A stretch of DNA of 64,000 nt from contig NZ_CP128361.1 in NCBI RefSeq assembly GCF_030345075.1, positions 4,774,001 to 4,838,000 on the forward strand. The letters are read 5' to 3'. This DNA is from Solwaraspora sp. WMMA2065. Lineage in GTDB: Bacteria; Actinomycetota; Actinomycetes; Mycobacteriales; Micromonosporaceae. Below the pieces are notes generated by a model. It saw nothing but the letters and a program-made list of their open reading frames with translations. It made no database searches and was not told the origin of the DNA. Positions 48,601 to 64,000 of this stretch are shown here, one piece after another. The first letter of the stretch is position 1. The number at the start of each line of letters is the position of its first letter. The position numbers and the translations under genes were made by a program.

Positions 48601-49004
48601 AGTCTGCGCAGGAAGGTGCGCAGCTGAGAGGTTCCGTCCGGTGCCGGTCGGACGAAATCCTCCAGCAGGGACAGCGAGGTGCTTCGCCAGAACGCGCTGG
48701 CCTCCAGGAGCTTGACAAGAAAAAAGAAGCCACCGGCGGTCTGTACCCGTTGACGCAACGCGCCGAGCAGGTGTGTCTTGCCGGTGCCGCGTTGCCCCAG
48801 GATCGCCAGTCCCACCGGGCTGGAGTCGACGCTGTCATCCGCTTCGGCGACGCCCTCCATCACCATCTCGATGATCTGGTGATGCAATCCTTCGACGTGG
48901 AAGGGAAGCGGCTTCCAGACATCGTCCGGGGTCGGTGCCCAGTTGAACCGTAGTGCGGCCAGCGCTCGCCGCTGCTCGTCGGTCATCCCGGTGGGACCCG
49001 TCAT
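45663..49004 (-). CDS. AAA/STAND-HerA double ATPase
   Basis: 1113 aa. N-terminal AAA-type NTPase: Walker A ILGQRGTGKTHLLGAL (about 70-77), Walker B VIALDQIDLMV (about 265). Middle: a long helical region and an acidic linker around 385-435. C-terminal HerA/FtsK-like motor: Walker A FAGSGSGKTVLLRRL (about 735), LDPNNDLARL, Walker B LFVMDEAQTLAP (about 980) and LVFATQAPKALHNQIPGNAA. HerA motors translocate on or pump DNA, often with a nuclease in defence loci; none is visible here. ATG 49004 overlaps the stop of the wHTH gene (ATGA). A longer frame upstream is shadow. Confidence 0.88.
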   Translation of the reverse strand: MTGPTGMTDEQRRALAALRFNWAPTPDDVWKPLPFHVEGLHHQIIEMVMEGVAEADDSVDSSPVGLAILGQRGTGKTHLLGALRQRVQTAGGFFFLVKLLEASAFWRSTSLSLLEDFVRPAPDGTSQLRTFLRRLADEVDAPRAVRRSITGDTELTRHALDALVDQVRKINRQIGTECQDTARALVLYASDDGTAQDLGHDFLSSSDEESPGALAAWGIRRSKRAPQEIVRDASRLLALVGPTVIALDQIDLMVAQSVKSTSREVRGEVDWQTSLLLEQIASGLMSLRENTRRALSVVSCLPQTWQSIKEQATDTVQDRFREAVRLKEIPSPDIGRELVEKRFGLVFDELGFTPPYPTWPIHPSAFTEVVQFTPRELLRRIDTHVRSCLADGQVRELTHLLHAQSGKNGPATRSDAVPTPDRSDKSEVQEGAQSVPAESDELAKIDISYAELIESAETASAVQQSSEDLRVPALLQAGLTAWIAAQGGSADEFSLDPLPFSGKPALHARVRRTLDEETEDEEHWSFRAVCAPHHIAALNRIRNAMTTSGLTEGVTKRRLFLLRSAGWSAGARTRELLDAFTRAGGQTLPFPTADIRRLAALERLIQQYGLERLRPWFASRQPASTVAFLRDALDGGADANRESHADSHDTTAPTEPDPAMQQVGPPVRAVGRASVSVRPAASGNSSAGRGGPAEQLAMQAGIDPPQMTIGSVAGRADPVRMDLESLRRHTVIFAGSGSGKTVLLRRLVEECALRGVSAIVLDPNNDLARLGDAWPEPPTGWGPADPDQAAAYFAGTDVVVWTPGRRAGRPLSFQPLPNFGDVLDDPDGFRAAVDSAVATLAPHARVDGGTDKARLGRAVLREALIGYAQNGGSDLQAFTDLLNDLPDGVSQLDSAPKLAAGMAQLLKAALIDDPLLGGDGTPVDPGILLTPPPGRHARVSVISFVGLPHDHQRQSFVNQLQLALFTWIKRNPAGDRPLGGLFVMDEAQTLAPSGSVTACTQSTLALTSQARKYGLGLVFATQAPKALHNQIPGNAATQFFGLLTAPVQIEAARDVARAKGTDIPDVGKMATGQFYAAVEGARFVKLQAPMCLSHHPRSPLTTEEVVQRAAVHR

Positions 49005-49693
49005 GAGGGCGAGATCGAAATCAGATGCCGTAGCTGATTGCCGATGCTGACGGCGGCGTCGCGCTCCTGCGTCCTGAGTACCTTCTGGTTGGACTCCGGC
49101 ACGATCTGCACGTCGGGGTCCTGGTTGAGCTTGATCAGCGCGGCGTCGAGATCGTCGCGAGACAGATCGGCGAGCACGGCCCGCAGCGCGGCCAGCATGA
49201 CGTAGTCGCCGGGTTGGTCGATCAGCTCGTGGTACGCCCGACGGATCCGCGTGGCCACGTCGACCTGGCTCGCTTCGCTGCCGTTGGCCGTCGGCGCGAC
49301 CGGCTCTGCCGAGTCGGTGGTGGAAGCGATCTCGTCGGGCTTGAACTGCATCCGGAACAGGTCGTCCGCTCGGACGCCCGAGTGGTCGATCAGCCGACGA
49401 ACGAAGTCGAGCACCGTGTAGAGCGTCGCACCTGCGGTGCCGGCACCCTTCGGTGGCTCGTCCTTGCTCAACTCCGCCTTGGCCGCCTCCCACCCGCTGT
49501 CGGTCAGGTGCAGGGTGATTGGCTTCTCCGTCACCTCGATCAGCCCAAGGGCTTCCAGGGCGCGGCGATGGGTCGCCTTGAGCCCGGTGACGCCCGCGAC
49601 GTTGATCAGGTAGCTCTGCTGCAGCGGAGCGGCCTTGACCATCAGGTTGATGAGTACGCACCGCTCGACGAGGGTGAGTTCCTTCTCCGACAT
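49001..49693 (-). CDS. Winged-helix protein coupled to the HerA ATPase
   Basis: 230 aa. The N-terminal 75 residues (EKELTLVERCVLINLMVKAA, TGLKATHRRALEALGLIEVT) form a MarR/replication-protein-like winged helix. The rest is helical, with an acidic linker and a C-terminal HTH-like segment (IRRAYHELIDQPGDYVMLAA). Possibly a DNA adaptor or regulator for the ATPase. ATG 49693 has GAGGAG 8 nt upstream; an open frame to 50590 is rejected because this ribosome-binding site is clear and the extension is a shadow. Confidence 0.8.
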   Translation of the reverse strand: MSEKELTLVERCVLINLMVKAAPLQQSYLINVAGVTGLKATHRRALEALGLIEVTEKPITLHLTDSGWEAAKAELSKDEPPKGAGTAGATLYTVLDFVRRLIDHSGVRADDLFRMQFKPDEIASTTDSAEPVAPTANGSEASQVDVATRIRRAYHELIDQPGDYVMLAALRAVLADLSRDDLDAALIKLNQDPDVQIVPESNQKVLRTQERDAAVSIGNQLRHLISISPS

Positions 49694-50415: not shown

Positions 50416-53400
50416 GTGACCGCAGGACCCGACGACTGCTCCTGGCTGGTTGCCCTGCACCGTGGGCAGCACCAGGACACCCCCGTCGGTACCGGCGTCG
50501 TTGTGGAGAGCAACCTGGTGCTGACCTGCCACCATGTCGCGTTCGGCAACGACGGGCAGCTGTACGACGACCTCTGGATCTCGTTCCCACTGGCCGAGAA
50601 GGTCACCTGGTTCGACCGCCGCCGGATCGGCGGCTGCCCGCACGACGGAATGCGGGATGCCAAGGTCGACCTGGTCATGCTTGAACTCGTGGAGCCGGTG
50701 CCGGCCTCGGTGACCCCGGCCCGACTTCGTTGTCTGCCCGCCAAGCCGCTGGCGGGAAGCGCTTACTGGACGTACGGGTTCCCGACGCACGTGGTCGGCG
50801 GCTGCCATGCCGAAGGTAGTGTCGGCCAGCCTGGTGGGTGGGGCCGCGTCATGATCCACACCTCGCCGGCCACCCAGCTGAGCAAGGGATTCAGCGGCGG
50901 TCCGGTCTGGTCATCCGAGTACCAGGCGGTGGTCGGCGTCGTTGTCACCGCCGACGCTCAGGGCGGCGGCCAAGCCGTGACCCTGCACTACGCCGACCAG
51001 CAACTACCGGACATGAAGCTGGCGACTCTGTCCGCCTGGCGGGCCGCCGACGCGGACGACGCCGCCCTTGCCGCCTGGGGATGGGCCCTGGCCACCGACG
51101 GCGAGGCAGGCCGGCACTGGCTGCCCAGGGCACGCGGGGTCGCGGTCGACACCGAAGGCGGCGCGCGGTTCCGCGGCCGGGCCGCCGCCCTGCGTCGCGT
51201 CGTCGACTGGATCGACAGCGTCGAACCGATCAGCCGGCCGCTGATCGTCACCGGGTCGCCGGGGGTCGGCAAGTCAGCCGTGCTCGGGCGGATCGTCACC
51301 ACCGCCGACCAGCAGATCAGCGGGGAACTGTCCGACACGGACATGGCCGTCCGAGCTCCGGTCGGTGCGGTTTCCTGCGCAGTGCACGTCAAGGGCAAGA
51401 CTGCCCTCGAAGTCGCCGCCGAGATCGCCCGTGCCGTCGCCGTCGAGCTGCCCGGCGTACCGGCTGATCTGATGCCTGCGGTGCGCGACCAGCTGAACCA
51501 CCGACGGACCCGATTCACCCTGGTCCTCGACGCGCTCGACGAGGCGACCGACCCGGCGCAGGCGCGCATGGTGATCGACGACATCCTGATGCCGCTGGCC
51601 CGTGACTGTGGCCCTCGGGGCCTGCGGATCGTGATCGGCACCCGGCGCTCAGACCATCACGGTGACCTGATCAGCCGCTTCGGCGGTAACGCGGAACTCG
51701 TCGACCTGGACGCGCCGGAGTACTTCGCCGAATCCGACCTGGCCGACTACGCCCAGGCGACGCTGCAACTGATCGGTGCCGAACGACCAGGCAACCCGTA
51801 CGCCGATCCGACCGTCGCCGCGCCGCTCGCCCGCCGTATCGCCGCCCTCGCCAAGGGAAACTTCCTGGTCGCCGGCCTGATCGCCCGCGCTCACGCGCTG
51901 CGCGACAACACCGCGATCGACCCGGACGAGGTGTCGTTCACCGCTACCGTGGCGCACGCCCTGGACACCTACCTGGCCGGGCTGCCGACCGCCGGCCGGA
52001 CATCGGCCCGGCTGGCGTTGACCGCCCTGGCGTACGCCGAGACGCCGGGACTGCCACTGACGTTGTGGCAGTCCGCGATCGAAGCCCTCGGCGGGGCGGT
52101 CACCGAGCCGGAACTCGCCGACTTCGCGCGTACCTCGGCGGCGAACTTCCTCGTCGAAACGGGCGGCGGCGCTCAGCCCGCGTACCGGCTGTTCCACCAG
52201 GCGCTCAACGACGCGCTGCTGGCCGATCGGGACGCTCAGGCCTCGCGGCGCGACGACCACGCCCGGCTGCTGGCGAGCTGGACCGCCATCGCGCGAGCTA
52301 CCGGATGGGCCACAGCGTTCGACTACCTGCTGCGGTCGCTGCCGCAGCACGCGGCCGGCGCCGGCGCGGTCGACGACCTGCTCACCGACGACGACTATCT
52401 GCTGTACGCCCACCTGGACCGGTTACTTACGGTGGCGGACGCGGCCGAGGCGCCGCTCGCCGTAACCCGTGCCCGGCTCCTGCAACGGACCCCGCTGGCG
52501 GTGGCAGCCGCGCCGGCTGAGCGGGCGGCGTTGTTCTCTGTCGTCGACCGGCTCGACGGCCTGGACAACGGGATCACGGCGGCGGCCGCCCCGTACCGGG
52601 CAGGCTGGGCGCACACCCCGCCCCGGCAGGAACGCAGCATCCTCGACGGACACTCCGAGGCCGTCTACGACGTCGCGGCGATCGTCATCGACGGGCGTCG
52701 GCTGCTCGCCTCGGCCGGCGACGACGGCACGGTGCGACTCTGGGATCCGCTGACCAACCAGGCCGAGCAGACGTTCACCGGCCACGACGACACGATTCAT
52801 GGTGTCTGCGCGGTGCGCCTCGCCACCGGTGAGGTGCTGCTCGCCACGGCCAGCCACGACGGCACCATCGGACTGTGGGACCCGCGTTCCGGGCACCGCC
52901 GGCACGAGCTGCGTGGCCACGGCGACTGGGTACGCAACATCTGCGCGATCCCAATGCCCGACGGTGACCTGCTCGCCTCCGCCGGTGACGACCGGACGGT
53001 GCGGTTGTGGGATCCGGAGACGGGCAGACCAGGCCATGTGCTGACCGGGCACACCGGCTGGGTGACGGCGGTGACCCACGTGCCCGTCGGGGACCGACAG
53101 TTGCTCGCCTCCACCGGCTACGACGGCACGGTGCGGCTGTGGGACCCGGCGACCGGTGGGGAGCCGACCGGAGTCCTCACCGGTCACCTCGGCTGGGTCA
53201 ACACTCTGTACGCGGTGCGTACCCCCGGCCGTACCCTGCTCGCCTCGGCGGGCTATGACGGCACGGTGCGAATCTGGGATCCCGTGATCAGGGCGTGCGT
53301 CCAGGTCCTGCGAACCGGAGGTCCGCTGACCGATCTGTGCACAGTCGATGTCAGCGACGGATGCCTGCTGGTCTCGACCGGTGAGGACGGACTGATCCGA

Positions 53401-54483
53401 ATGTGGGAGGTGCCGACCGGCGCCCCGCAGCAGACCTGGATTCCCCGACCGAGCCTGCGCGGGCATGCCAGCTGGATCCGAGCGGTCTGCGAGCTGCCGA
53501 CGGCGAACAACCGGATGCTCGCCACCGCTGGCGACGACGGGACCGTGCGACTGTGGGACCCGGGCGGCGGACCGCCGGGGGCGGTCGCCGAGCACGACCG
53601 GATCGGGGCGGTGACCGCGGTGTGCCCGGTGCCGGGGGACGAGGGCCGGCTGGTCGCATCCGCCGGATCGGACGGGCAGGTACGGATCTGGGACGCGGTC
53701 ACCGGTGCCCAGCTGCGCGAGTTCCGGGCGTCGGACGGCCCGGTCAATGCGCTGTGCGTCGTACCCGACGAGGAGGAGCCGCGCATCCTGACGGCTGGCG
53801 ATGATCGAGTCGTCAAGCTGTGGGACGCGCGGGACGGCACACTGCAGGGGGAGATGAACGGCCACTACGAGCGAGTCGCCGCCGTCTGCTCTGTGCAGCA
53901 CGACGCGGAGCTGTTGGTGGCCTCTGCCGGCGACGACCAGACTGTCCGGCTGTGGCGTCCGTACTCGGGCGACGTGCGCGGGGTGTTACTCGGGCACGTG
54001 ACCCTGGCCTGGGTGACGACGCTGACCACGGTCGCCGGGCCTGCCGGCGAGCTGCTCGCCTCCGCAGACAAGAGCGGCACCATCATGCTCTGGGACACCG
54101 ACGGCACGCAGCTCTGGTCGCAGCAGGGGCATCAGGACGCGGTGAACGCACTCTGCGGGCTCATGGTCGCCGACCGCCCGGCGCTGGCATCGGCCAGCGC
54201 GGACCACACGATCCGGTTGTGGGACGCCGAGCGGGGCCAGCCGATCCACTGGCTGACCGGGCACACGGGGCCGGTGACCGGGCTGAGCCTGGTCCAGGTG
54301 GGTGGGCGTGACCTGCTCGCCTCGACCAGCCACGACCGCACCGTCCGGGTCTGGGACCCACCGACCGCTCGCGCGGTACGCACGATCCCGGTGCTCCATC
54401 CAGCGCTGGCCTGCTGCACCGTCGACGACACGCTACTGATCGGGCTGGACCAGGGCCTGCTGGCGCTCACGATCACGAGTTGA
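50416..54483 (+). CDS. Trypsin-STAND NTPase-WD40 conflict protein
   Basis: 1355 aa. Residues 1-200: trypsin-like domain with His in VLTCHHVAF (H40), Asp in AKVDLVML (D85) and Ser in GFSGGPVW (S160); all three present. 245-735: STAND NTPase with Walker A TGSPGVGKSAVLG (280-287), Walker B TLVLDALDEATD (368-377) and sensor VIGTRRSDH. 740-1355: thirteen WD40 units ending LWDP-like, probably two seven-bladed propellers. No signal peptide, so it acts in the cytoplasm. Such proteins are proposed to sense an invader through WD40, oligomerise through the NTPase and unleash the protease. GTG start at 50416; convergent with the toxin gene, 5 bp apart. Confidence 0.92.
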   Translation: MTAGPDDCSWLVALHRGQHQDTPVGTGVVVESNLVLTCHHVAFGNDGQLYDDLWISFPLAEKVTWFDRRRIGGCPHDGMRDAKVDLVMLELVEPVPASVTPARLRCLPAKPLAGSAYWTYGFPTHVVGGCHAEGSVGQPGGWGRVMIHTSPATQLSKGFSGGPVWSSEYQAVVGVVVTADAQGGGQAVTLHYADQQLPDMKLATLSAWRAADADDAALAAWGWALATDGEAGRHWLPRARGVAVDTEGGARFRGRAAALRRVVDWIDSVEPISRPLIVTGSPGVGKSAVLGRIVTTADQQISGELSDTDMAVRAPVGAVSCAVHVKGKTALEVAAEIARAVAVELPGVPADLMPAVRDQLNHRRTRFTLVLDALDEATDPAQARMVIDDILMPLARDCGPRGLRIVIGTRRSDHHGDLISRFGGNAELVDLDAPEYFAESDLADYAQATLQLIGAERPGNPYADPTVAAPLARRIAALAKGNFLVAGLIARAHALRDNTAIDPDEVSFTATVAHALDTYLAGLPTAGRTSARLALTALAYAETPGLPLTLWQSAIEALGGAVTEPELADFARTSAANFLVETGGGAQPAYRLFHQALNDALLADRDAQASRRDDHARLLASWTAIARATGWATAFDYLLRSLPQHAAGAGAVDDLLTDDDYLLYAHLDRLLTVADAAEAPLAVTRARLLQRTPLAVAAAPAERAALFSVVDRLDGLDNGITAAAAPYRAGWAHTPPRQERSILDGHSEAVYDVAAIVIDGRRLLASAGDDGTVRLWDPLTNQAEQTFTGHDDTIHGVCAVRLATGEVLLATASHDGTIGLWDPRSGHRRHELRGHGDWVRNICAIPMPDGDLLASAGDDRTVRLWDPETGRPGHVLTGHTGWVTAVTHVPVGDRQLLASTGYDGTVRLWDPATGGEPTGVLTGHLGWVNTLYAVRTPGRTLLASAGYDGTVRIWDPVIRACVQVLRTGGPLTDLCTVDVSDGCLLVSTGEDGLIRMWEVPTGAPQQTWIPRPSLRGHASWIRAVCELPTANNRMLATAGDDGTVRLWDPGGGPPGAVAEHDRIGAVTAVCPVPGDEGRLVASAGSDGQVRIWDAVTGAQLREFRASDGPVNALCVVPDEEEPRILTAGDDRVVKLWDARDGTLQGEMNGHYERVAAVCSVQHDAELLVASAGDDQTVRLWRPYSGDVRGVLLGHVTLAWVTTLTTVAGPAGELLASADKSGTIMLWDTDGTQLWSQQGHQDAVNALCGLMVADRPALASASADHTIRLWDAERGQPIHWLTGHTGPVTGLSLVQVGGRDLLASTSHDRTVRVWDPPTARAVRTIPVLHPALACCTVDDTLLIGLDQGLLALTITS

Positions 54484-54488
54484 GTGCA

Positions 54489-54872
54489 TCAAAGGAGCCC
54501 GAGCCGTCGCAGCTCCGCGGCGATCGCGTCGACCTCGTGCAGGCTGCCGTCGGCGACTGCGAGCATGAACGCCTCAGCGCGGTCGACGTCGACGTCCGGG
54601 ATCGTCGCCCCGGTGTTGAGGTTGATGAAGACCAGCGCGGCGGCCCAGGCAAGGCGTTTGTTGCCGTCGACGAGTGCGTGGTTGCCGCAGATCGAGTGCA
54701 GCAGGCTGGCCGCTTTGCCCGCGAGGTCGGGGTAGGCCTCCTGCCCGAAGACGATCGTGCTCGGTCGGGCGGCGGCGGAGGCGAGCAGCCCGTAGTCGCG
54801 GACCTTGGCTGGCGTGCCGAAGACGATCGAGCCGATCTCCAGCAGGTCTTCGACGTCGAGATAGACGGTCAC
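54489..54872 (-). CDS. doc: Doc-type toxin (Fic fold)
   Basis: 127 aa. Fic-family motif HALVDGNKRLAWAAALVFIN (consensus HxFx(D/E)GNKR). Doc toxins phosphorylate EF-Tu and arrest translation. It starts LDVEDLLEIGSIVFG. Start GTG 54872 overlaps the antitoxin stop (GTGA), so the pair is coupled. The His, Asp, Asn, Lys and Arg of the motif are intact. Confidence 0.92.
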   Translation of the reverse strand: MTVYLDVEDLLEIGSIVFGTPAKVRDYGLLASAAARPSTIVFGQEAYPDLAGKAASLLHSICGNHALVDGNKRLAWAAALVFINLNTGATIPDVDVDRAEAFMLAVADGSLHEVDAIAAELRRLGLL

Positions 54873-55072
54873 TGGGCCAGTCGGTCGAGTAGCTCACGGT
54901 GGCGCTCGGCCACATCTGCGGCCAACCCACGCACCTTGGACCGCTTGCTGTGCCTCGCGACGTACTCCTCGATCGCGACGACGATGGTGGCGTTGGCCGA
55001 CCGGTGCTCGGTCTCAGCGATCTGCTTGAGCCGCGCGTGCAGATCGTCCGGCAGGTTGACTGTGGTAACCAT
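54869..55072 (-). CDS. Antitoxin, RHH-type DNA-binding
   Basis: 67 aa: MVTTVNLPDDLHARLKQIAE and HRSANATIVVAIEEYVARHS form a ribbon-helix-helix with a basic then acidic C-terminal tail that would bind the toxin. ATG 55072. First gene of the toxin operon; probably autoregulates its promoter in 55073-55261. Confidence 0.88.
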   Translation of the reverse strand: MVTTVNLPDDLHARLKQIAETEHRSANATIVVAIEEYVARHSKRSKVRGLAADVAERHRELLDRLAQ

Positions 55073-55261
55073 AGGACAATCATATGACATCCAAGTGATA
55101 CTGGCCGCGCAGCGGACCGGTGACCTGGAGTGGATCAACCGGGTGGCGTGGTCGAGTCGGATGATCGGGTCGGGAATGCACCAGATGACGGGACTTACCG
55201 TGCGTACCCGGGCGGTGATTGAATCGACGGACTGTCAGTGGTGCCGGGCCGGGGAGCAGTG

Positions 55262-58200
55262 GTGGACGTCTTCGATGTACGCGACAAGCTCATCGAGGAC
55301 TACAAGGAGTTCACGTCCAGCTTCGTCGACCCCCGCGACCCGAAGATCGCCGAACACATCGCGGAGTTGACCGCCCAGGGCTACCAGTGGCCGGCACCGT
55401 TCCTGTCGCTCAATCCCAACTTCGCCTCCGGCGGCAGGGTCGACGAGCTGGTCCAGCAGGGCCTGCTGCACCCCGACAACGAGCGGATCTTCCGGATCAA
55501 GCGCCAGCCGGACGACCCGGGGGCGCGGCCGCTGCGGCTGCACCAGCACCAGCGGGAAGCGATCGAGATCGCCCGGGACCGGCACAGCTACGTGCTGACC
55601 ACCGGCACCGGTTCCGGCAAGAGCCTGTCGTACATCGTGCCGATCGTCGACCGGGTGCTGCGGGCCAAGGCCGCCGGCACCTACCGGCCCGGGGTGAAGG
55701 CGATCATCGTCTATCCGATGAACGCGCTGGCCAACAGCCAGCTCAACGAGCTGACGAAGTTTCTCAGCTGGGGCCTGCCGGGCGGGACCCCGCCGGTGCG
55801 GTTCGCCCGCTACACCGGGCAGGAGAACACCGAGGAGCGGCGGCGGATCCTCGCTGACCCGCCGGACATCCTGCTCACCAACTACGTGATGTTGGAGCTG
55901 GTGCTGACCCGGCACGCCGAACGTGGCCCGCTGACCCGGGCCGCCCGTGGCCTGTGGTTCCTGGTCCTCGACGAGCTGCACACCTATCGTGGCCGGCAGG
56001 GTGCCGACGTGGCGTTCCTGGTCCGCCGAGCCCGGGACGCCTTCGCCGCGCCGCAGGTGCAGTGCGTCGGCACCTCGGCGACGATGGCCTCCGACACCAC
56101 CGGCGCAGACCAGCGGATCAAGGTGGCCGAGGTGGCGAGCCGGCTGTTCGGCACCACCGTCGAACCCGGCCACGTGATCGTCGAGACGCTGGAGCGGGCC
56201 ACCAGCGCACCGGCCACCAGCGCGCCGGTCGGCGGCGCTCCGGCCACCGGAACGCCGGCCGGCACCGGCGCGGACCCCGCCGGTCTGCGTGACCGGGTCC
56301 TGCGGTGGGCCGCCACCGAGCCGCCACAGCCGGACGTCGACGGGTTGCGGACCGATCCGTTGGCAGCGTGGGTCGAGGGCGCGTTCGGGGTGGAGCCCGA
56401 CCCGGTGACCGGCCGGCCGGTGCGGCTGCGCCGGCCCAGGACGGTCCCGCAGGCCGCGGACCTGCTCGCCGAGCTGACCGGGGTGCCGGGCCGGGAGTGC
56501 GCCACCGCGATCGAGGCGGTACTGGCCGCCGGTGCGGGGCTCGACGACCCGGGGACCGGGCGGCCGTTCTTCGCGTTCCGGCTGCACCAGTTCCTGTCCA
56601 AGGGCGACAACGTCTACACCACGATCGAGCCGCCGTCGGTGCGGCATGTGACCAGCCGCTACCAGGCGCTCTCCCCGACCAGTACGGTCGACCAGTCGAA
56701 GGCGCTGGTCCCGTTGGCCTTCTGCCGCGAATGCGGCCAGGACTATCTGATCGTCCGGCGCGCCGACCACGGCTTCGAGGCGGGCAGCGAGGTGGAGTCG
56801 GCCACCGGTGACGCCGGCTACCTCTACATCAGCGACGACCAGCCGTGGCCGGCGGATCTCGACACCGTGCTCAGCGACGCCCGGCTGCCGTACTCGTGGA
56901 CGCTGCTGGCCGACGACGGGCGCACCATCGTGGCCCCGACGAAGGAACGCCACCTGCCGGAGCTGGTGCATCTCGACCCGATGGGCACCGAGCAGGCACC
57001 GGGGCAGGGGGTGCCGGCGGCCTGGATCTCGTCGCCGTTCCGGTTCTGTCTGCGCTGCCAGGTGTCCTACGAACGCCAGCGCGGCAAGGACTTCGCCCAG
57101 CTGGCGAAGCTGTCCGTCGAGGGCCGCAGCTCGGCGTTGTCGGTGGTCGGGGCGAGCGTGGTACGCGCGTTGCGGGCCGCCCCGCGGCTGCCGGCGGAGG
57201 CCCGCAAGCTGCTCGCCTTCGTCGACAACCGGCAGGACGCCTCGCTGCAGGCCGGGCACTTCAACGATTTCGTCCAGGTGGTGCAGTTGCGTGGCGCGCT
57301 GTACCGGGCGGTGGCGGCGGCCCCGGACGGGTTGACCCACGAGCGGGTGGCGCAGCAGGTCACCGAGGCGCTGCGGCTGGAGTTGGGGCAGTTCGCCCGG
57401 ACCCCGGAGGTGCGGTACGGCAAGGACGAGATCTGGCGGGCGCTACGCGAGGTGGTCAACTACCGGCTCTACCTCGATCTGGAACGCGGCTGGCGGGTCA
57501 CCATGCCGAACCTGGAGCAGACCGGCCTGCTGCGGATCGGCTACCGCTATCTCGACGAGGTAGCCGTCGACGAGGAGATCTGGTCGCGCAGCCACCATCT
57601 GCTGCGCGACGACAAACCGGAACGCCGCCACGACGTGGCCTCGACGCTGCTGGACGAGCTGCGCCGCAACCTGGCGATCGACGTACGGTGCCTGACCCAG
57701 GACGGTTTCGACGAGATCGACCGGCTGTCCCGCCAGCAGCTGGCCGAGCCGTGGAAGCTGGGTGAACGGGAGCGGGCGGTCGTCGCCGGGGTCGCCTACC
57801 CGAAGCCGAGCGGCAAGGGCGAGCGGCGCAAACTGCTGCACTTGTCCGGCCGGGGGGCGTTCGGCAAGTACCTGATCCGACAGTACGGCAAGGACGGCTG
57901 CACAGTCGCCGACGCGCAGGACATGATCCGCGACCTGTTGGCGGTGCTGGCCGAGGCGACCCTGGTGATCGAGGTGCCACCGGAGGGCGACGACCTGGTC
58001 AGCGGCTACCGGCTGAAGTCGGACGCGCTGATCTGGCAGGCCGGGGACGGCACGGTGGGCGCGGAGGACCGGGTCCGCAAGGTGCTCTCCGGTGAGGCCG
58101 GTGCCCGGGTCAACACCTTCTTCCGGGACCTGTACCGGGACACTTCGCATCTGCTGGCCGGGTTGCAGGCGAAGGAACACACCGCCCAGGTGGAGGCGGC

Positions 58201-60559
58201 GGACCGGCAGAAGCGGGAGAAGCAGTTCCAGGAGGCGGCGCTGCCGCTGCTGTTCTGCTCGCCGACGATGGAGCTGGGCGTCGACATCAAGGATCTCAAC
58301 GCGGTGGCGATGCGTAACGTGCCGCCGACGCCGGCCAACTACGCCCAGCGGGCCGGGCGGGCCGGCCGGTCCGGGCAGCCGGCGCTGGTGGTCACCTACT
58401 GCTCGACGGGCAACGCGCACGACCAGTTCTATTTTCGACGCCCGCAGCTGATGGTCGGTGGTGCGGTGCAGGCGCCCCGGCTCGATCTGGCCAACGAGGA
58501 TCTGGTGCGGTCGCACGTGCAGGCGATCTGGCTGGCCGAGACCGGGGCCGAGCTGCCCAGTTCGCTGGTGCGGCTGTTGGAGACCGGCGGGGAGGCCCCG
58601 TCGCTGCGGATCCGGCCGGAGTTCGTCCGCAAGCTGCGCGACGACGACGCCCGCAAGCGGGCGCTGGCCCGCGCGGAAGCGGTCCTGGCCGGCGACGTCG
58701 GCGGGGCGTCCGGCGGGAACCCAGGCGGGGCGCTTGCCGGGGCTCCCTGGTGGCGGGACCGCTGGGTCGCCGACACGGTGGAGCAGGCGTACGACGAGTT
58801 CGACGCGGCGTTGGGCCGCTGGCGGCAGCTCTACCAGGCGGCGCTGCGCGAGTATGAGGTGCAGAACCGCCGGGCGGTGGACACCAACGTGACCGGCAAG
58901 GCCCGGGACGAGGCGAGCCGGCGGGCCAACGACGCCCGGGTGCAGCTGAATCTGCTGGCCAACGAGAACTCCGACGAGCCGCAGACCGACTTCTACACGT
59001 TCCGCTATCTGGCGTCGGAGGGTTTCCTGCCCGGCTACTCGTTCCCCCGGCTGCCGCTGGCCGCGTACGTGCCGGGGCTGGCCGGTGGACGCAAGGGCGA
59101 CTACATCCACCGGCCCCGGTTCATCGGGATCAGCGAGTTCGGCCCGGGTGCGTTGATCTACCACGAGGGTGCCCGCTACCTGGTGCGCGGCGTGCAGCTG
59201 CATCAGGTGGCGTCGAACGCCGACGGGGTGTTGACCTCGTCGGCGCGGCGGTGCGCCGAGTGCGGGCATCTGCACGACGACGAGGTCGGCTGGGACGTGT
59301 GTGTGAACTGCGGGCAGGGGCTGGGCGCGACGGACACCAATCTGCTGCGCCTGTACACGGTCCGCACGCAGCGGCGGGAGCGGATCTCGTCGGACGAGGA
59401 GGAGCGGCGTCGGTCGCTGTTCGAGATCGAGACGTCGTACCGCTTCCATGATCATGGTCGGCGGCCGGGCCGGTTGACGGCGGCGGTGACCACCGCCGAC
59501 GGCAGCCCGCTGGCCGAGCTGGTCTACGGCGACGCGGCGACGGTGCGGCGGGCCAATCTGGGGTTGCGTCGCCGCAAGGAGGCCAGCGTCCGGGGCTTCT
59601 TCCTGGATCCGGCGACCGGTGACTGGCTGTCCGAGCGTAAGGCGACGGAGAAGAACCGGGCCGACGACGAGGAGCTGACCTCGGACGAGGCGGCGATCAC
59701 GGCGATCGACAAGGTGGCCGCGCCGGAGCGGGTGATCCCGTACGTGCAGGACCGGCGCAACATCCTGGTGCTGCGGCTGGCCGAGCGGGTACCCGACGAC
59801 ATGGCGGTGACCCTGCTGTACGCGGTGGAACGCGGCATCGAGGCGCATTTCCAGCTGGAGGATTCGGAGCTGACCGGTGAGCTGCTGCCGGATCCGGATG
59901 ACCGTGGCCGGATGCTGTTCATCGAGAGCGCCGAGGGCGGGGCGGGGGTGCTGCGTCGGCTGGTCGAGGAGCCGCACGCGGTCGCCCGGGTGGCGGCGAA
60001 GGCGTTGGAGATCGCGCACTTCGACCCGACCGGGGTCGATGTGGACCAGCCGGATGCCGGTGCCGACCACTGTGTCCAGGGCTGCTACGACTGTCTGTTG
60101 TCGTACTCGAATCAGGGGTTTCACCGGCGGATCAACCGGCACCTGGTGGCGCAGCTGTTGGTGTCGTTCGCGTCGGCGGCGGCCGAGCGGCCGGCGGCCG
60201 GCCGGCCGCCGGGCGGCGACTGCCCACCAGTGGGCAGCGACGGGGCGGCTGGTGCCGGTAGCGTCGACGGGCCGGTCGCCGAGTTCGTGGCCTGGCTGGC
60301 GCGCGAGTCGTACCGGGGGCCGGATCCGGTGGCGGATCCGGTGGCGGGGGCCCGGCCGGATCTGACCTACCGGCAGCAGCGGGCGGTGGTCTTCGTCGAT
60401 GAGCCGGGCGTGCAGCCGGGTGCCGGGCGGGACGTGGACGCCGAGGAGAGTGTGATCGACGCCGGCTGGACCCCGATCCGGGTGACTGCCGGTGACTGGC
60501 AGAGCGCGGTGGGTCGGTATCCCGGCGTGTTCGGGCGGCGGCAGGGAGGCAGTGCGTGA
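55262..60559 (+). CDS. DEAD/DEAH helicase with C-terminal DUF1998
   Basis: 1765 aa. N-terminal SF2 helicase: Walker A TTGTGSGKSLSYIVPIV (about 120), DELH box in LVLDELHTYRGRQGAD (about 240), GTSATM (about 268), a second RecA domain after a long insertion (LLFCSPTMELGVDIKDLNAV, about 1000; QRAGRAGRSGQPALVVTY). A treble-clef-like CAECGHLHDDEVGWDVCVNC cluster lies around 1330, and a C-terminal DUF1998/MrfA-type zinc motif CVQGCYDCLLSYSNQ near 1610. The last 140 residues are a short nuclease-like or unknown tail. Large compared with MrfA (about 750). GTG 55262 after GGGGAG; GTG 55238 is possible. Overlaps the next gene by 4 bp. Confidence 0.9.
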   Translation: MDVFDVRDKLIEDYKEFTSSFVDPRDPKIAEHIAELTAQGYQWPAPFLSLNPNFASGGRVDELVQQGLLHPDNERIFRIKRQPDDPGARPLRLHQHQREAIEIARDRHSYVLTTGTGSGKSLSYIVPIVDRVLRAKAAGTYRPGVKAIIVYPMNALANSQLNELTKFLSWGLPGGTPPVRFARYTGQENTEERRRILADPPDILLTNYVMLELVLTRHAERGPLTRAARGLWFLVLDELHTYRGRQGADVAFLVRRARDAFAAPQVQCVGTSATMASDTTGADQRIKVAEVASRLFGTTVEPGHVIVETLERATSAPATSAPVGGAPATGTPAGTGADPAGLRDRVLRWAATEPPQPDVDGLRTDPLAAWVEGAFGVEPDPVTGRPVRLRRPRTVPQAADLLAELTGVPGRECATAIEAVLAAGAGLDDPGTGRPFFAFRLHQFLSKGDNVYTTIEPPSVRHVTSRYQALSPTSTVDQSKALVPLAFCRECGQDYLIVRRADHGFEAGSEVESATGDAGYLYISDDQPWPADLDTVLSDARLPYSWTLLADDGRTIVAPTKERHLPELVHLDPMGTEQAPGQGVPAAWISSPFRFCLRCQVSYERQRGKDFAQLAKLSVEGRSSALSVVGASVVRALRAAPRLPAEARKLLAFVDNRQDASLQAGHFNDFVQVVQLRGALYRAVAAAPDGLTHERVAQQVTEALRLELGQFARTPEVRYGKDEIWRALREVVNYRLYLDLERGWRVTMPNLEQTGLLRIGYRYLDEVAVDEEIWSRSHHLLRDDKPERRHDVASTLLDELRRNLAIDVRCLTQDGFDEIDRLSRQQLAEPWKLGERERAVVAGVAYPKPSGKGERRKLLHLSGRGAFGKYLIRQYGKDGCTVADAQDMIRDLLAVLAEATLVIEVPPEGDDLVSGYRLKSDALIWQAGDGTVGAEDRVRKVLSGEAGARVNTFFRDLYRDTSHLLAGLQAKEHTAQVEAADRQKREKQFQEAALPLLFCSPTMELGVDIKDLNAVAMRNVPPTPANYAQRAGRAGRSGQPALVVTYCSTGNAHDQFYFRRPQLMVGGAVQAPRLDLANEDLVRSHVQAIWLAETGAELPSSLVRLLETGGEAPSLRIRPEFVRKLRDDDARKRALARAEAVLAGDVGGASGGNPGGALAGAPWWRDRWVADTVEQAYDEFDAALGRWRQLYQAALREYEVQNRRAVDTNVTGKARDEASRRANDARVQLNLLANENSDEPQTDFYTFRYLASEGFLPGYSFPRLPLAAYVPGLAGGRKGDYIHRPRFIGISEFGPGALIYHEGARYLVRGVQLHQVASNADGVLTSSARRCAECGHLHDDEVGWDVCVNCGQGLGATDTNLLRLYTVRTQRRERISSDEEERRRSLFEIETSYRFHDHGRRPGRLTAAVTTADGSPLAELVYGDAATVRRANLGLRRRKEASVRGFFLDPATGDWLSERKATEKNRADDEELTSDEAAITAIDKVAAPERVIPYVQDRRNILVLRLAERVPDDMAVTLLYAVERGIEAHFQLEDSELTGELLPDPDDRGRMLFIESAEGGAGVLRRLVEEPHAVARVAAKALEIAHFDPTGVDVDQPDAGADHCVQGCYDCLLSYSNQGFHRRINRHLVAQLLVSFASAAAERPAAGRPPGGDCPPVGSDGAAGAGSVDGPVAEFVAWLARESYRGPDPVADPVAGARPDLTYRQQRAVVFVDEPGVQPGAGRDVDAEESVIDAGWTPIRVTAGDWQSAVGRYPGVFGRRQGGSA

Positions 60560-63450
60560 CGGTGGCGGCGCAGCGGTTCGAGCCGGGGACGTTGGTCACG
60601 GCGCGGGGCCGGGAGTGGGTGGTGCTGCCCGAGTCGGAGCCGGAGGTGCTGGTGCTGCGCCCGCTCGGCGGGGCGGACGACGAACGCGCGGCGGTGCTGC
60701 CGGATGTCGAGGAGGTCCGGTCGGCGACGTTCGCGTACCCGGATCCGACCGATGCCGGCAACGCCAGCCGGGCCGGCCTGCTGCGGACGGCGCTGCGGAT
60801 CGGGTTCCGCTCCTCCGGCGGGCCGTTCCGGTCGTTGGGCGCGGTGGCGGTGGAGCCCCGGCCGTACCAGCTGGTGCCGCTGCTGATGGCGTTGCGTCAG
60901 GACCCGGTGCGGATGCTGATCGCCGATGACGTCGGCATCGGCAAGACCGTCGAAAGTGGGTTGATCGCGGCCGAGCTGCTGGCCCAGGGCGACGCGGACG
61001 GGTTGGCGGTGCTGTGCAGCCCGGCGTTGGCCGAGCAGTGGCAGCGGGAGCTGGCGGCCAAGTTCGGCATCGCCGCCGAGTTGGTGCTGCCGGGCACCGT
61101 ACGCCGGTTGCAGGCGTCGCTGGTCGGCTCGACCGATTCGGTGTTCGACCGCTACCGGCACGTGGTGGTCTCCACTGATTTCATCAAGCGGCCGGAGCTG
61201 CGCGAGCAGTTCGTCCGCGGCTGTCCCAACCTGGTCATCGTCGACGAGGCGCACGGCTGCGTGCCGGACGACGACCGCCGGGCCGGCAAGTCCCGGATGT
61301 TGCGCTACGAGTTGGTACGCCGGTTGGCCGCCGACCCGGCCCGGCAGTTGATCCTGGTGACGGCGACGCCGCACAGCGGCAAGGACACCGGGTTCCGCAA
61401 TCTGCTCGGGCTGCTGGATCCGGAGCTGGCCACAGTAGACCTTAACCAGGTGGCGGGTCGGGAGCGGCTGGCCCGGCATTTCGTGCAGCGTCGCCGCGCC
61501 GACATCCGGGGTTTCCTGGAGGACACCCCGTTCCCGGAGGACCGGCACACCACCGAGCGCGCCTACCGGCTGTCCGGCGAGTACCGCGACCTGTTCGACG
61601 ACGTGGTGGCGTACGCCCGGCAGGTGGTGCGGGATCCGCTCGGCGGGCAGGTGCGCCAGCGGGTGCGGTACTGGTCGGCGTTGGCGCTGTTGCGGGCGTT
61701 GGCGTCGTCGCCGGCCGCGGCGGCGGCGACGCTGCGGACCCGGGCGGCGAACGCCGACGCCGACAGCGCCGAGGACGCGGACACTCTGGGTCGGGCGGCG
61801 GTGCTGGATCTGCCCGACGACGAGACCCAGGAGTCGGCCGACGCGACCCCGGGCGCGGACCCGGGAGCGGACGGTGGCGGCGGCAGTGCCGAGCAGCGCC
61901 GGCTGCGGGAGTTCGCCCGCCGCGCCGAGGCGCTGGCCGGGGCCGGCGACGCCAAACTGACCTTGCTGGTCAAGGAGGTCAAGACGCTGCTCGGTGACGG
62001 CTTCAACCCGGTGGTGTTCTGCCGCTACATCGACACCGCCGAGTACGTCGCGCAGCGGCTGGAGGCGGCGTTGGGCCGTAACTTCGCGGTCGGCTGCGTC
62101 ACCGGGGCGTTGCCGCCTGAGGAGCGGGCGGCCCGGATCGCCGAGCTGACCGCCGACACCAGCCGCCGCCCGGTGCTGGTCGCCACCGACTGCCTGTCCG
62201 AGGGGGTCAACCTGCAGGAACGGTTTCAGGCGGTGGTGCACTACGACCTGGCGTGGAACCCGACCCGGCACGAGCAGCGGGAGGGCCGGGTCGACCGGTT
62301 CGGCCAGGTCGCCCCGACGGTACGCGCGGTGATGATCTACGGCGCGGACAACCGGATCGACGAGATCGTGCTGAAGGTGCTGCTGCGCAAGCACAACCGG
62401 ATCCGCGAGACGTTGGGCATCTCGGTGCCGGTGCCGGACGCCAGCGACGACGTCCTGCAGACGATCGCCCACGAGCTGCTGGTGGCGCCGGAGCAGCCGG
62501 AGCAGTTGACCATCGACGCGCTGGCCGCCGGCCCGCGTGAGGAGCTGCACCGGCAGTGGGATTCGGCGGCCGAGCGGGAGAAGGAGTCGCGCACCAAGTA
62601 CGCCCAGCGGGCGATCAAACCGGCCGAGGTGGCCGACGAGTTGGCCGAGATCCGGGCCAGTCTGGGCACCCCGGCCGAGGTGGCCGAGTTCGCAGCGACC
62701 GCGCTGGCCGCGTTCGGCGCCGATGTGGTCGAGCGGCCGTACGGGTTCGACGCCGACCTGGCCGGGCTGCCCAGCCAGGTCACCGACGCCTTCCCACCCC
62801 GGCCGACGAAGGCGGGGCAGGGCAGGGCCGGGGTGTTGCAGCTGCGCCGTGAGCTGCCGACCCCGCCGGGCGCGGCACATCTGGACCGGACCGACCCGTA
62901 CGTGTCGGCGCTGGCCCGGCAGGTGCTGGAGTCGGCGCTGAATCCGTCGCTGCCGGCGGACAAACTGTCGGCGGAGAAGCGGCCGGCGCGGCGGGCCGGG
63001 GTGATGCGTACCGCTGCGGTGTCGAAACGCACGACGCTGCTGCTGGTGCGGTTCCGGCTGCATCTGACGTTGCCGGCCGGCGCGGCGGCGGGCGGTGAGC
63101 CGCGCCCGATGGTCGCCGAGGAGGCGCGGGTGCTGGCGTTCCGGGGTGCCCCGCAGGCGGCCGAGTGGCTGACCGAGGAGGAGACGGCCGCGCTGCTGTC
63201 GGCGACCCCGACCGGCAACGTGCTGCCGGACGCGGCGACACCGCTGCTGACCCGGGTCGTCGGCCAGCTCGACGCGGTCACCGACCATCTGTCGGCCACC
63301 GCCGACGAGCTCGCCGACCGGCTGCGGGCCGCGCATCTGCGGGTCCGGGAGGCGGCCGGGCAGCGGGTCCGCCGGCAGGTCACGGTCACCGCGCAGAAAC
63401 CGGCCGACGTGCTCGGCGTCTACCTCTATCTTCCCGGAGGGCAGCAGTGA
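60556..63450 (+). CDS. SNF2/DrmD-like helicase
   Basis: 964 aa. SWI2/SNF2-type motor: Walker A DDVGIGKTVESGL (124-131), DEAH in VIVDEAHGC (230-233), LVTATPHSGKD, and the second lobe ATDCLSEGVNLQERFQAVVH, NPTRHEQREGRVDRFGQ. The C-terminal 300 residues are helical and arginine-rich. Resembles DISARM DrmD; the HepA/RapA group is the alternative. GTG 60556 overlaps the upstream stop (GTGA). Confidence 0.9.
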   Translation: MTVAAQRFEPGTLVTARGREWVVLPESEPEVLVLRPLGGADDERAAVLPDVEEVRSATFAYPDPTDAGNASRAGLLRTALRIGFRSSGGPFRSLGAVAVEPRPYQLVPLLMALRQDPVRMLIADDVGIGKTVESGLIAAELLAQGDADGLAVLCSPALAEQWQRELAAKFGIAAELVLPGTVRRLQASLVGSTDSVFDRYRHVVVSTDFIKRPELREQFVRGCPNLVIVDEAHGCVPDDDRRAGKSRMLRYELVRRLAADPARQLILVTATPHSGKDTGFRNLLGLLDPELATVDLNQVAGRERLARHFVQRRRADIRGFLEDTPFPEDRHTTERAYRLSGEYRDLFDDVVAYARQVVRDPLGGQVRQRVRYWSALALLRALASSPAAAAATLRTRAANADADSAEDADTLGRAAVLDLPDDETQESADATPGADPGADGGGGSAEQRRLREFARRAEALAGAGDAKLTLLVKEVKTLLGDGFNPVVFCRYIDTAEYVAQRLEAALGRNFAVGCVTGALPPEERAARIAELTADTSRRPVLVATDCLSEGVNLQERFQAVVHYDLAWNPTRHEQREGRVDRFGQVAPTVRAVMIYGADNRIDEIVLKVLLRKHNRIRETLGISVPVPDASDDVLQTIAHELLVAPEQPEQLTIDALAAGPREELHRQWDSAAEREKESRTKYAQRAIKPAEVADELAEIRASLGTPAEVAEFAATALAAFGADVVERPYGFDADLAGLPSQVTDAFPPRPTKAGQGRAGVLQLRRELPTPPGAAHLDRTDPYVSALARQVLESALNPSLPADKLSAEKRPARRAGVMRTAAVSKRTTLLLVRFRLHLTLPAGAAAGGEPRPMVAEEARVLAFRGAPQAAEWLTEEETAALLSATPTGNVLPDAATPLLTRVVGQLDAVTDHLSATADELADRLRAAHLRVREAAGQRVRRQVTVTAQKPADVLGVYLYLPGGQQ

Positions 63451-64000
63451 TGAGCGGCGCGGTGGTCTATCCGGCGGTACGGGTCGACGGCGGCCTGCTG
63501 CCCGGCGGTCTGCTGCAGCGCATCGGCCACGGCGACCGGGAGCTGCCGGGGATGGACCCGGCCGCGTACGGCCTGCAGTCGGGTGAGTCGGTGCGCCGCT
63601 ACGCCAACCGGTCGTTCGCCTACCTGCAGGAGGTGTGGCGGGACTTCAGCCGGCAGCGGGAGCGGGCCGGCGACGGCGCACCGGCCCGGCTGACCCGGGA
63701 ACGCTGGCTGCTGGTGCTGCTGCGGGAGCTGGGCTTCGACCCGTTGACGCCGGTGACCGGCGGGATCGCCGTCGACGAGTTGACGTTCCCGGTGTCGCAC
63801 CGGTTGGACGCCGTACCGGTGCATCTGCTCGGCTGGGGGGTGGACCTGGACCGGCGGACGGCGCGGGTGCGCGGCGCGGCCGGCGCCGCCCCGCATTCGA
63901 TGGTGCAGCAGCTGCTGAACCGCAGCGACCGGCACCTGTGGGCGGTGCTGTCCAACGGGCAGAAGCTGCGGCTGCTGCGGGATTCGACGACGCTGGTCGG
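63450..64000 (+). CDS. Eco57I-type DNA methylase, N-terminal part
   Basis: First 183 codons, cut by the window edge. Region LQEVWRDFSRQRER..LTRERWLLVLLRELGF and FPVSHRLDAVPVHLLGWGVD plus HSMVQQLLNRSDRHLWAVLS and NGQKLRLLRDST is the leader of the large Eco57I/N6-adenine methylase family found in DISARM and related systems. The SAM-binding and NPPY motifs would lie beyond the window. ATG 63450 overlaps the SNF2 stop (TGATG). Confidence 0.78.
   Translation, partial: MSGAVVYPAVRVDGGLLPGGLLQRIGHGDRELPGMDPAAYGLQSGESVRRYANRSFAYLQEVWRDFSRQRERAGDGAPARLTRERWLLVLLRELGFDPLTPVTGGIAVDELTFPVSHRLDAVPVHLLGWGVDLDRRTARVRGAAGAAPHSMVQQLLNRSDRHLWAVLSNGQKLRLLRDSTTLV

Follow-up and report, generated by a model that had tools for sequence, protein, structure and literature searches.

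Does the three-gene operon that closes a 64,000-nucleotide stretch of the Solwaraspora sp. WMMA2065 genome belong to a known anti-phage system, and can the nuclease fold fused to its first gene still cut DNA? The stretch, hereafter the window, covers 4.774-4.838 Mb of a single-contig genome of 6.74 Mb, and all three genes lie on its plus strand. Gene 1 (55262-60559; recognised by open reading frame (ORF) calling, PADLOC, Pfam and phylogeny) encodes a YprA/DruE-like superfamily 2 helicase of 1765 residues with a fused DUF1998 (MZB) and a C-terminal Vsr-type domain; gene 2 (60556-63450; ORF calling, PADLOC, Pfam and NCBIfam) encodes a SNF2/RapA helicase of 964 residues, similar to BrxHII, DrmD and DpdE and carrying GIGKT, DEAH and REGRVDR motifs; and gene 3 (63447-64000 in the window), an Eco57I-type (PglX/DrmMI-like) adenine methyltransferase of 1337 residues, continues to window-equivalent position 67460, as recovered from DNA past 64000 and recognised by Pfam (L005:1447-5460; L-numbers label fetched DNA stretches, L005-L008 from the same genome and other numbers from relatives and controls). 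The three overlapping genes described in the first-pass annotation are real, both 4-bp overlaps being confirmed by the ORF call. Judged from sequence comparisons, the cluster is very likely ARMADA Type I, a member of the anti-phage system described in a 2025 preprint by Bell et al. (PMC12458937), and not a fused DISARM. As an overall explanation, an ARMADA Type I operon that has kept the Vsr fold and lost its catalytic residues is likely.

Gene order, domain architecture and phylogeny

In the preprint, ARMADA Type I has the order YprA, BrxHII-like, PglX-like (PMC12458937), and the operon presents the same succession of a YprA-like helicase, a BrxHII/RapA-like helicase and a PglX-like methylase. 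Gene 1 combines the RecA1, RecA2 and fused DUF1998 of a YprA-like helicase with a winged helix-turn-helix (wHTH) insert and CxxC pairs of zinc cysteines, both in agreement with the published architecture, in which a MarR-like wHTH lies in the RecA2 part. Membership of the YprA clade, the C-terminal Vsr-type fold and the frequent presence of McrBC nearby are further features shared with Type I (PMC12458937). Since 77 of 80 related loci show the same order and strand, and contig ends cut the remaining three (L021, L027 and L031), a chance arrangement is excluded; these relatives are the best 80 of 417, all actinobacterial, picked by likeness to gene 2. The profile of gene 2 finds a match at E <= 1e-150 in 16 of 150 genomes of the window's family and, within the genus, in one of seven, the window's own.

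Phylogeny points the same way. In a tree of the helicase core (RecA1 plus RecA2; 24 rows, 408 columns, several long branches), 18 Type I rows, including the window and a second copy from its own genome, fall on one side of a branch (support 91/93), while ARMADA Type II (two rows, 100/98) and Druantia (four rows, 95/92) both stand apart; the group labels were assigned here from gene neighbours, and the preprint's own tree sequences are not among the rows.

The first-pass annotation had read the operon as a possible DISARM branch in which DrmA and DrmB are fused, a reading that now appears exceedingly improbable. DISARM class 1 shares with this operon a DrmD-like gene, a DrmMI-like gene and DUF1998. 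The resemblances that had been noted for the partners are real: gene 2 (Pfam Helicase_C, DEAD and ResIII) matches NCBIfam DrmD at 293.7 bits, below the cut-off of 610, and the best PADLOC family of gene 3 is DrmMI (219.5 bits). Such partners are, on the other hand, common to ARMADA and DISARM class 1 (PMC12458937), and gene 1 scores as DruE and not as DrmA or DrmB. PADLOC gives it 324.7 bits for DruE3 against 74.3 for the best DrmA, DrmB is absent among the best 25 of the 34 PADLOC families matching it, and NCBIfam DrmA reaches 13.9 bits with a cut-off of 950.

The same genome offers a control, in which L008:1665-5315 (5.016 Mb) scores 1293.9 bits as DISARM_DrmAS and 980.7 bits as PADLOC DrmA, a separate neighbour (L008:5021-7153) matches DrmB at 253 bits, and the genome's best PLDc_2 match lies directly after this drmB, at 5.0215 Mb. 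The locus as a whole (L008:1665 to about 7950; 5.0157-5.0219 Mb) comprises separate drmA and drmB genes followed by that PLDc_2 match, a likely drmC. Furthermore, a helicase-core profile built from 13 Type I sequences recognises six ARMADA II and Druantia proteins (RecA1 71-138 bits, RecA2 80-117 bits), whereas in five DrmA proteins RecA1 scores negatively or not at all and RecA2 reaches 14.8-18.1 bits. The phospholipase D (PLD) nuclease gene drmC, which the annotation had proposed to seek beyond 64000, was not found near the operon: PLDc_2 has four matches in the whole genome, none within 180 kb, although a more divergent PLD could escape the model. DUF1998 is typically fused to the YprA helicase and is consistently separate only in DISARM (PMC12458937). 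The operon differs from DISARM class 1 in its unsplit helicase-DUF1998 protein, its permuted order, the lack of a nearby PLD and its place on another YprA branch, and the DrmA-DrmB fusion is rejected by the family scores together with the drmA-drmB-PLD control.

The alternative that the annotation had also allowed, a different helicase-methylase system, is borne out by content, order, most of the domains tested and phylogeny. It had reckoned, too, with a better match to Dpd or another known system and with a methylase core missing past the window edge. The better match is to ARMADA Type I and not to Dpd, and the core lies on the DNA beyond 64000, where it is complete, since Eco57I, MmeI_Mtase and N6_Mtase (Pfam) match and the motifs DPACGSGHFL and NPPW are present (window-equivalent positions 64959 and 65778).

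Two automatic labels need correction, DruE for gene 1 and DpdE for gene 2. DruE is indeed the best family label of gene 1, and the helicase core is related to that of Druantia; Druantia nevertheless occupies its own branch of the tree, apart from the Type I rows, and no DruH-like match occurs among the neighbours scanned against PADLOC, which represent part of the neighbouring ORFs. The YprA proteins of two controls, L095 and L101, are also best labelled DruE by PADLOC, their ARMADA Type II label being our reading of gene order. The best PDB sequence match of gene 1 is 9tu7 (E 1.2e-47), an entry named 'DEAD/DEAH box helicase' that may be a DruE. As for Dpd, gene 2 fits the PADLOC DpdE cluster PDLC02853 along its length with 991 bits, yet NCBIfam DpdE gives it 182 bits, with a cut-off of 500, and no dpd partners appear among the neighbours scanned, save that gene 1 matches DpdJ and DpdF through the shared helicase. 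Dpd was accordingly rejected despite its strong PADLOC label, NCBIfam falling below the cut-off and a dpd cluster not being found among the scanned proteins. The same cluster, PDLC02853, fits ARMADA I gene 2 proteins over their full length with up to 2040 bits; it is likely mislabelled and would yield false Dpd calls.

ARMADA Type II, represented by L095 from the E. coli plasmid pLAO8, shares a homologous helicase, a RapA-like helicase and a methylase with the window operon, the YprA protein being labelled DruE3 and the RapA-like protein DrmD by PADLOC. It differs in its order (RapA, methylase, YprA), in a fourth gene encoding an ATP-dependent helicase and in the length of its YprA protein (2113 residues).

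Within gene 1, an alternative GTG start at 55238 would give 1773 residues; the in-frame GTG at 55262, which gives 1765, aligns with the start of gene 1 in the genome's second operon, and residue numbers are counted here from 55238. The RecA1 (DEAD) domain (55544-56095, residues 103-286; Pfam and motif check) has an intact GTGSGKS from 55604 and DELH from 55970. Before RecA2 (Helicase_C; 58145-58375, residues 970-1046; Pfam) lies a predicted winged-helix domain (57536-58024) resembling PerR, Fur and MarR; its best VIA-align match is of moderate significance (Z 8.1, root-mean-square deviation (rmsd) 3.0, 86 aligned residues), with wHTH families tied. The MZB/DUF1998 zinc domain (59819-60097, residues 1528-1620; Pfam and motif check) carries CVQGCYDC from 60071. 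The helicase had been said to end in DUF1998: the domain is there, but about 150 residues follow it and contain the Vsr-type domain.

One lineage feature was not confirmed. A BrxA-like helical insert after RecA1 has been called the synapomorphy of the lineage, and no BrxA occurs among the listed Foldseek and VIA-align matches; the comparison used a 692-residue model of the middle region, and a missing match there says nothing against a BrxA insert.

The C-terminal Vsr-type domain

The nuclease is where the operon departs from published Type I. Bell et al. describe the C-terminal Vsr domain of ARMADA I and II as predicted active (PMC12458937), a property typical of Type I and not type-defining; the window copy retains the Vsr-type fold (60266-60535; C-terminal alignment, predicted structure and VIA-align) and has lost the E of its helix and the H of its motif. 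Across the aligned C-termini the signature consists of E (LExxF), D (PDF), D-G and H (VFVDGPxH). This signature resembles the EDxHD set of Vsr-like nucleases. In the window protein, V replaces the E of the helix, PDL retains its D (residue 1708) and VFVDEP lacks the H, giving V/D/D/none. Of 74 full-length copies, 34 have the complete signature and 40 are degenerate, 31 of the latter lacking both E and H and nine lacking H only. The 74 copies comprise 72 of the 80 related loci, the window and the second copy of its genome; L010, L021, L027, L033, L043 and L044 were dropped because contig ends cut them, and L026 and L071 because gene 1 is in two ORFs.

The fold itself is predicted to be compact in the window protein, with block-mean predicted local distance difference test scores of 88-97 over residues 91-180 of the modelled piece. 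The five best VIA-align matches of this model include I-Bth0305I (Z 7.8, rmsd 3.0, 86 aligned), VRR_NUC (Z 7.5) and Vsr itself (1cw0; Z 6.7, rmsd 5.7, 97 aligned). At E <= 1, Pfam MTES_1575 matches 34 of 69 family members and not the window member.

Altogether, the domain is probably catalytically dead, and cutting by Vsr would be absent. Other residues might instead substitute in an altered catalytic set, leaving the nuclease active: of the 74 copies, 71 still have the D of PD and 66 the D that precedes G, and the Vsr fold is predicted with high confidence. We consider this quite improbable, as E is replaced variously by Q, V, A, R, L, C, D or K, the H loop is shortened or missing in various ways, and a common substitute was not seen. 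Several points temper the case for a dead Vsr nuclease: the VIA-align Z values, all below 8, are middling, and the next two places after the top five go to mitoribosomal chains (Z 6.6 and 5.9); at E <= 0.001 Foldseek had no match for the C-terminal model, the Vsr group coming from VIA-align only; and the residue roles are taken from motif and fold and not from a structure of this protein.

Recurrence of the degenerate state and retention of the operon

A quick tree (LG+G4) of the 74 copies was built from the helicase part after exclusion of the nuclease columns. Degenerate copies fall there into four groups, all actinobacterial, of 17, 13, 5 and 5 rows. The degenerate state needs four changes, all four forced by starred branches, compared with a mean of 24.8 when states are shuffled. 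The window copy belongs to the group of 13 rows (support 92, unstarred), where its neighbour is Micromonospora craterilacus (L009).

Plasmid-borne copies broaden the picture. Of fourteen Type I-like plasmid loci, two were left out, L092 because its gene 1 is fragmented and L093 because the stretch ends too early. In the remaining 12 copies, with the alignment judged by eye, the signature is intact in eight (Thermus, Deinococcus, Pseudanabaena, Nostoc, Nocardioides, Rhodococcus, Paraburkholderia and the archaeon Haloquadratum) and degenerate in four (Acidithiobacillus, Mesorhizobium, Paracoccus and Chlorohelix); for Thermus, Pseudanabaena and Nostoc the assessment covers gene 1 alone. Because the intact form is so widely spread, through Deinococcota, Cyanobacteriota, Pseudomonadota, Actinomycetota and one archaeon, loss is favoured over gain as the direction of change, which the tree alone cannot tell. 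The nuclease residues thus appear, from these alignments, to have been lost independently several times in related bacteria. The inference of repeated loss is weakened by the quick construction of the tree without a mixture model and by long branches that meet in one degenerate clade. As a separate observation, the Type I helicase of Paraburkholderia (L091:3842-9004) apparently lacks the MZB cysteines (ASYDDLLSY) and keeps the Vsr signature, again judged by eye.

Equally important is whether an operon without its nuclease residues still works. Every copy, whether degenerate (40 of 40) or intact (34 of 34), retains Walker A, DExH, motif VI and the MZB cysteines; GTSAT is matched by 39 of the 40 degenerate and 31 of the 34 intact copies. 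Full-length methylases, available from 36 of the 40 degenerate and 26 of the 34 intact loci, all have an NPPW-type match (36/36 and 26/26), and the S-adenosylmethionine (SAM) pattern occurs in 33 of 36 and 26 of 26. A single gene-2 match (E <= 1e-150) was found in 38 of 39 other genomes with degenerate copies and in 31 of 33 genomes with intact ones, so that a second operon is not the rule, and the idea that degenerate copies are generally backed by a second ARMADA I is not borne out. With the motifs kept in 40 of 40 copies and no second gene-2 copy in 38 of 39 genomes, nuclease-dead ARMADA probably still works, and on balance we expect the window operon to be functional as well.

Selection on the domain itself was estimated by the ratio of nonsynonymous to synonymous substitution rates (dN/dS, Nei-Gojobori), values that are rough for so short a domain. 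Vsr dN/dS is below 1 in 11 of 11 degenerate pairs (0.14-0.62) and spans 0.05-0.51 in 11 intact pairs. Relative to the helicase, the ratio exceeds 1 in 10 of 11 degenerate pairs (median 2.4) and in nine of 11 intact pairs (median 1.3). Constraint on the Vsr domain is therefore weaker in degenerate copies but not gone.

The operon could alternatively be decaying, with the loss of nuclease residues as a first step and defence already gone. The higher relative Vsr dN/dS of degenerate pairs is in keeping with decay, as is the second, complete ARMADA I operon in the window's genome (L007:971-14348, 6.571-6.584 Mb, minus strand), which has an intact Vsr signature and whose longest ORFs (2084, 998 and 1386 residues) share 50, 53 and 46% identity with genes 1, 2 and 3. 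Decay seems improbable, however, given that gene 1 is a single open frame in 74 of 74 counted copies (L026 and L071, with two ORFs, being uncounted), that the helicase and zinc motifs are intact in every degenerate copy, that whole groups of 17, 13, 5 and 5 rows retain the degenerate state, that the copy is the only one found in 38 of 39 other genomes, and that Vsr dN/dS stays below 1 in all degenerate pairs.

Some observations do count against continued function. The weaker relative constraint on Vsr is what would be expected of a domain being lost, and the second operon may act as a backup in the window's genome. Moreover, three degenerate-type methylases (L020, L022 and L085) lack the exact SAM pattern, the NPPW pattern is loose and was accepted anywhere in the protein, and many of the 39 genomes are drafts, in some of which certain first-look candidates are unscored.

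A possible mode of action and the genomic neighbourhood

Functional data come from Type II. In E. coli, ARMADA Type II gave protection against 13 of 80 phages, and growth was not arrested. Protection disappeared when any one of the four genes was deleted, and also with Walker A or B mutations in ArmA and ArmC, a Walker A mutation in ArmD and a mutated methylase NPPW motif; ArmD Walker B and methylase GxG mutants showed partial loss only (PMC12458937). Both the non-abortive action and the need for all four genes are thus results for Type II. In the available parts of the same source, anti-phage tests were found for Type II and none for Type I, which is a further weakness of our interpretation; anti-phage activity of Type I is inferred.

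On this model, the gene 3 methylase would mark host DNA, with a presumed role in distinguishing self from non-self. Unmarked phage DNA or replication intermediates could then be loaded by the YprA helicase of gene 1, perhaps at single-stranded stretches, which DruE is reported to engage (PMC13192584). The RapA-like translocase of gene 2 would process the loaded phage DNA, and phage replication might be stopped directly, without host suicide. In the window copy, the step would be a block or unwinding, or else cleavage in trans by another nuclease, rather than by the fused Vsr domain.

A nuclease in trans, with the helicase complex exposing DNA that McrBC or a host nuclease then cuts, is a less likely explanation. 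Of the 63 loci with enough DNA, 28 have McrC no more than 3.5 kb beyond gene 3; ten neighbour proteins tested proved to be McrC in five of five cases (PF10117) and, by position, McrB-type AAA_5 ATPases in the other five of five, the neighbour clustering having mixed real genes with antisense frames and being used only after these Pfam tests. In the window's genome, McrBC occurs about 18 kb downstream of gene 3 (L006:3490-6965), and a PLD-pocket mutant of Druantia III loses defence alone and keeps its synergy with Zorya against T3 (PMC13192584). Still, the McrBC pair of this genome is not adjacent to gene 3, and the share of loci with McrC is scarcely higher for degenerate copies (16 of 34) than for intact ones (11 of 26). 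Because these frequencies differ so little, McrBC is no simple replacement for the lost nuclease, and that proposal was rejected.

ARMADA was named only in 2025, and a central question about its mechanism is whether the fused nuclease does the killing. The copies described here seemingly amount to a natural experiment, the nuclease residues having gone in separate clades with the rest kept, usually in single copy; and one strain holding a dead copy, an intact copy and a DISARM-type drmA-drmB-PLD locus makes a direct comparison possible. Tentatively, and as somewhat less likely than not, we suggest a widespread nuclease-dead Type I class that has repeatedly arisen from nuclease-bearing ancestors and still defends. 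In such a class, the fused nuclease would not need to cut DNA, the central mechanism would be a BREX-like, methylation-guided helicase/translocase block, the dead Vsr fold might serve as a DNA-binding or assembly module, and stand-alone target-recognition genes and a mosaic methylase paralogue could add switchable specificity. Druantia provides precedents for an inactive nuclease, inactivated Vsr domains being reported in types I and II (PMC12458937), beside the Druantia III PLD-pocket mutant (PMC13192584). The system as such is known; a nuclease-dead, repeatedly arisen Type I was not found in print in a literature search that covered parts of PMC12458937, PMC13192584 and PMC13316683.

The surroundings of the operon hold several further genes of interest. 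A promoter scan gave one weak match, which was not used. Directly after the operon (L005:5633-7233) lie a gene for a DddA-like deaminase toxin and, following it, two Imm1 genes, the second in opposite orientation. A defence island follows downstream with an AbiE toxin-antitoxin pair (L005:12824-14531) and the AAA_5 ATPase and McrC genes of the McrBC pair. Just upstream, 50416-54483 encodes a 1355-residue protein with WD40 repeats and a weak N-terminal RT-Protease match (E 1.9e-5), a candidate defence sensor. A Fic/Doc-like gene with a ribbon-helix-helix antitoxin-like partner (54489-55138, minus strand) is divergent from gene 1, and a 1332-residue HerA-like (DUF87) ATPase is encoded nearby (45663-49661, minus strand).

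Variation also affects the methylase. An orphan full-length paralogue of gene 3, 62% identical and without stops, extends from L005:16203 to L006:246 (window-equivalent positions about 78203-82246); gene 3 residues 861-978, 1039-1141 and 1261-1316 are 84-88% alike and residues 1142-1260 only 39-56%, as if target-recognition parts had been exchanged. In five of the 80 related loci (L023, L025, L030, L039 and L076), an extra target-recognition-like ORF stands in tandem after the methylase, with possible multi-specificity as the outcome, and in three of them (L025, L030 and L076) the core of the methylase is encoded apart from its first recognition part, each in an ORF of its own.

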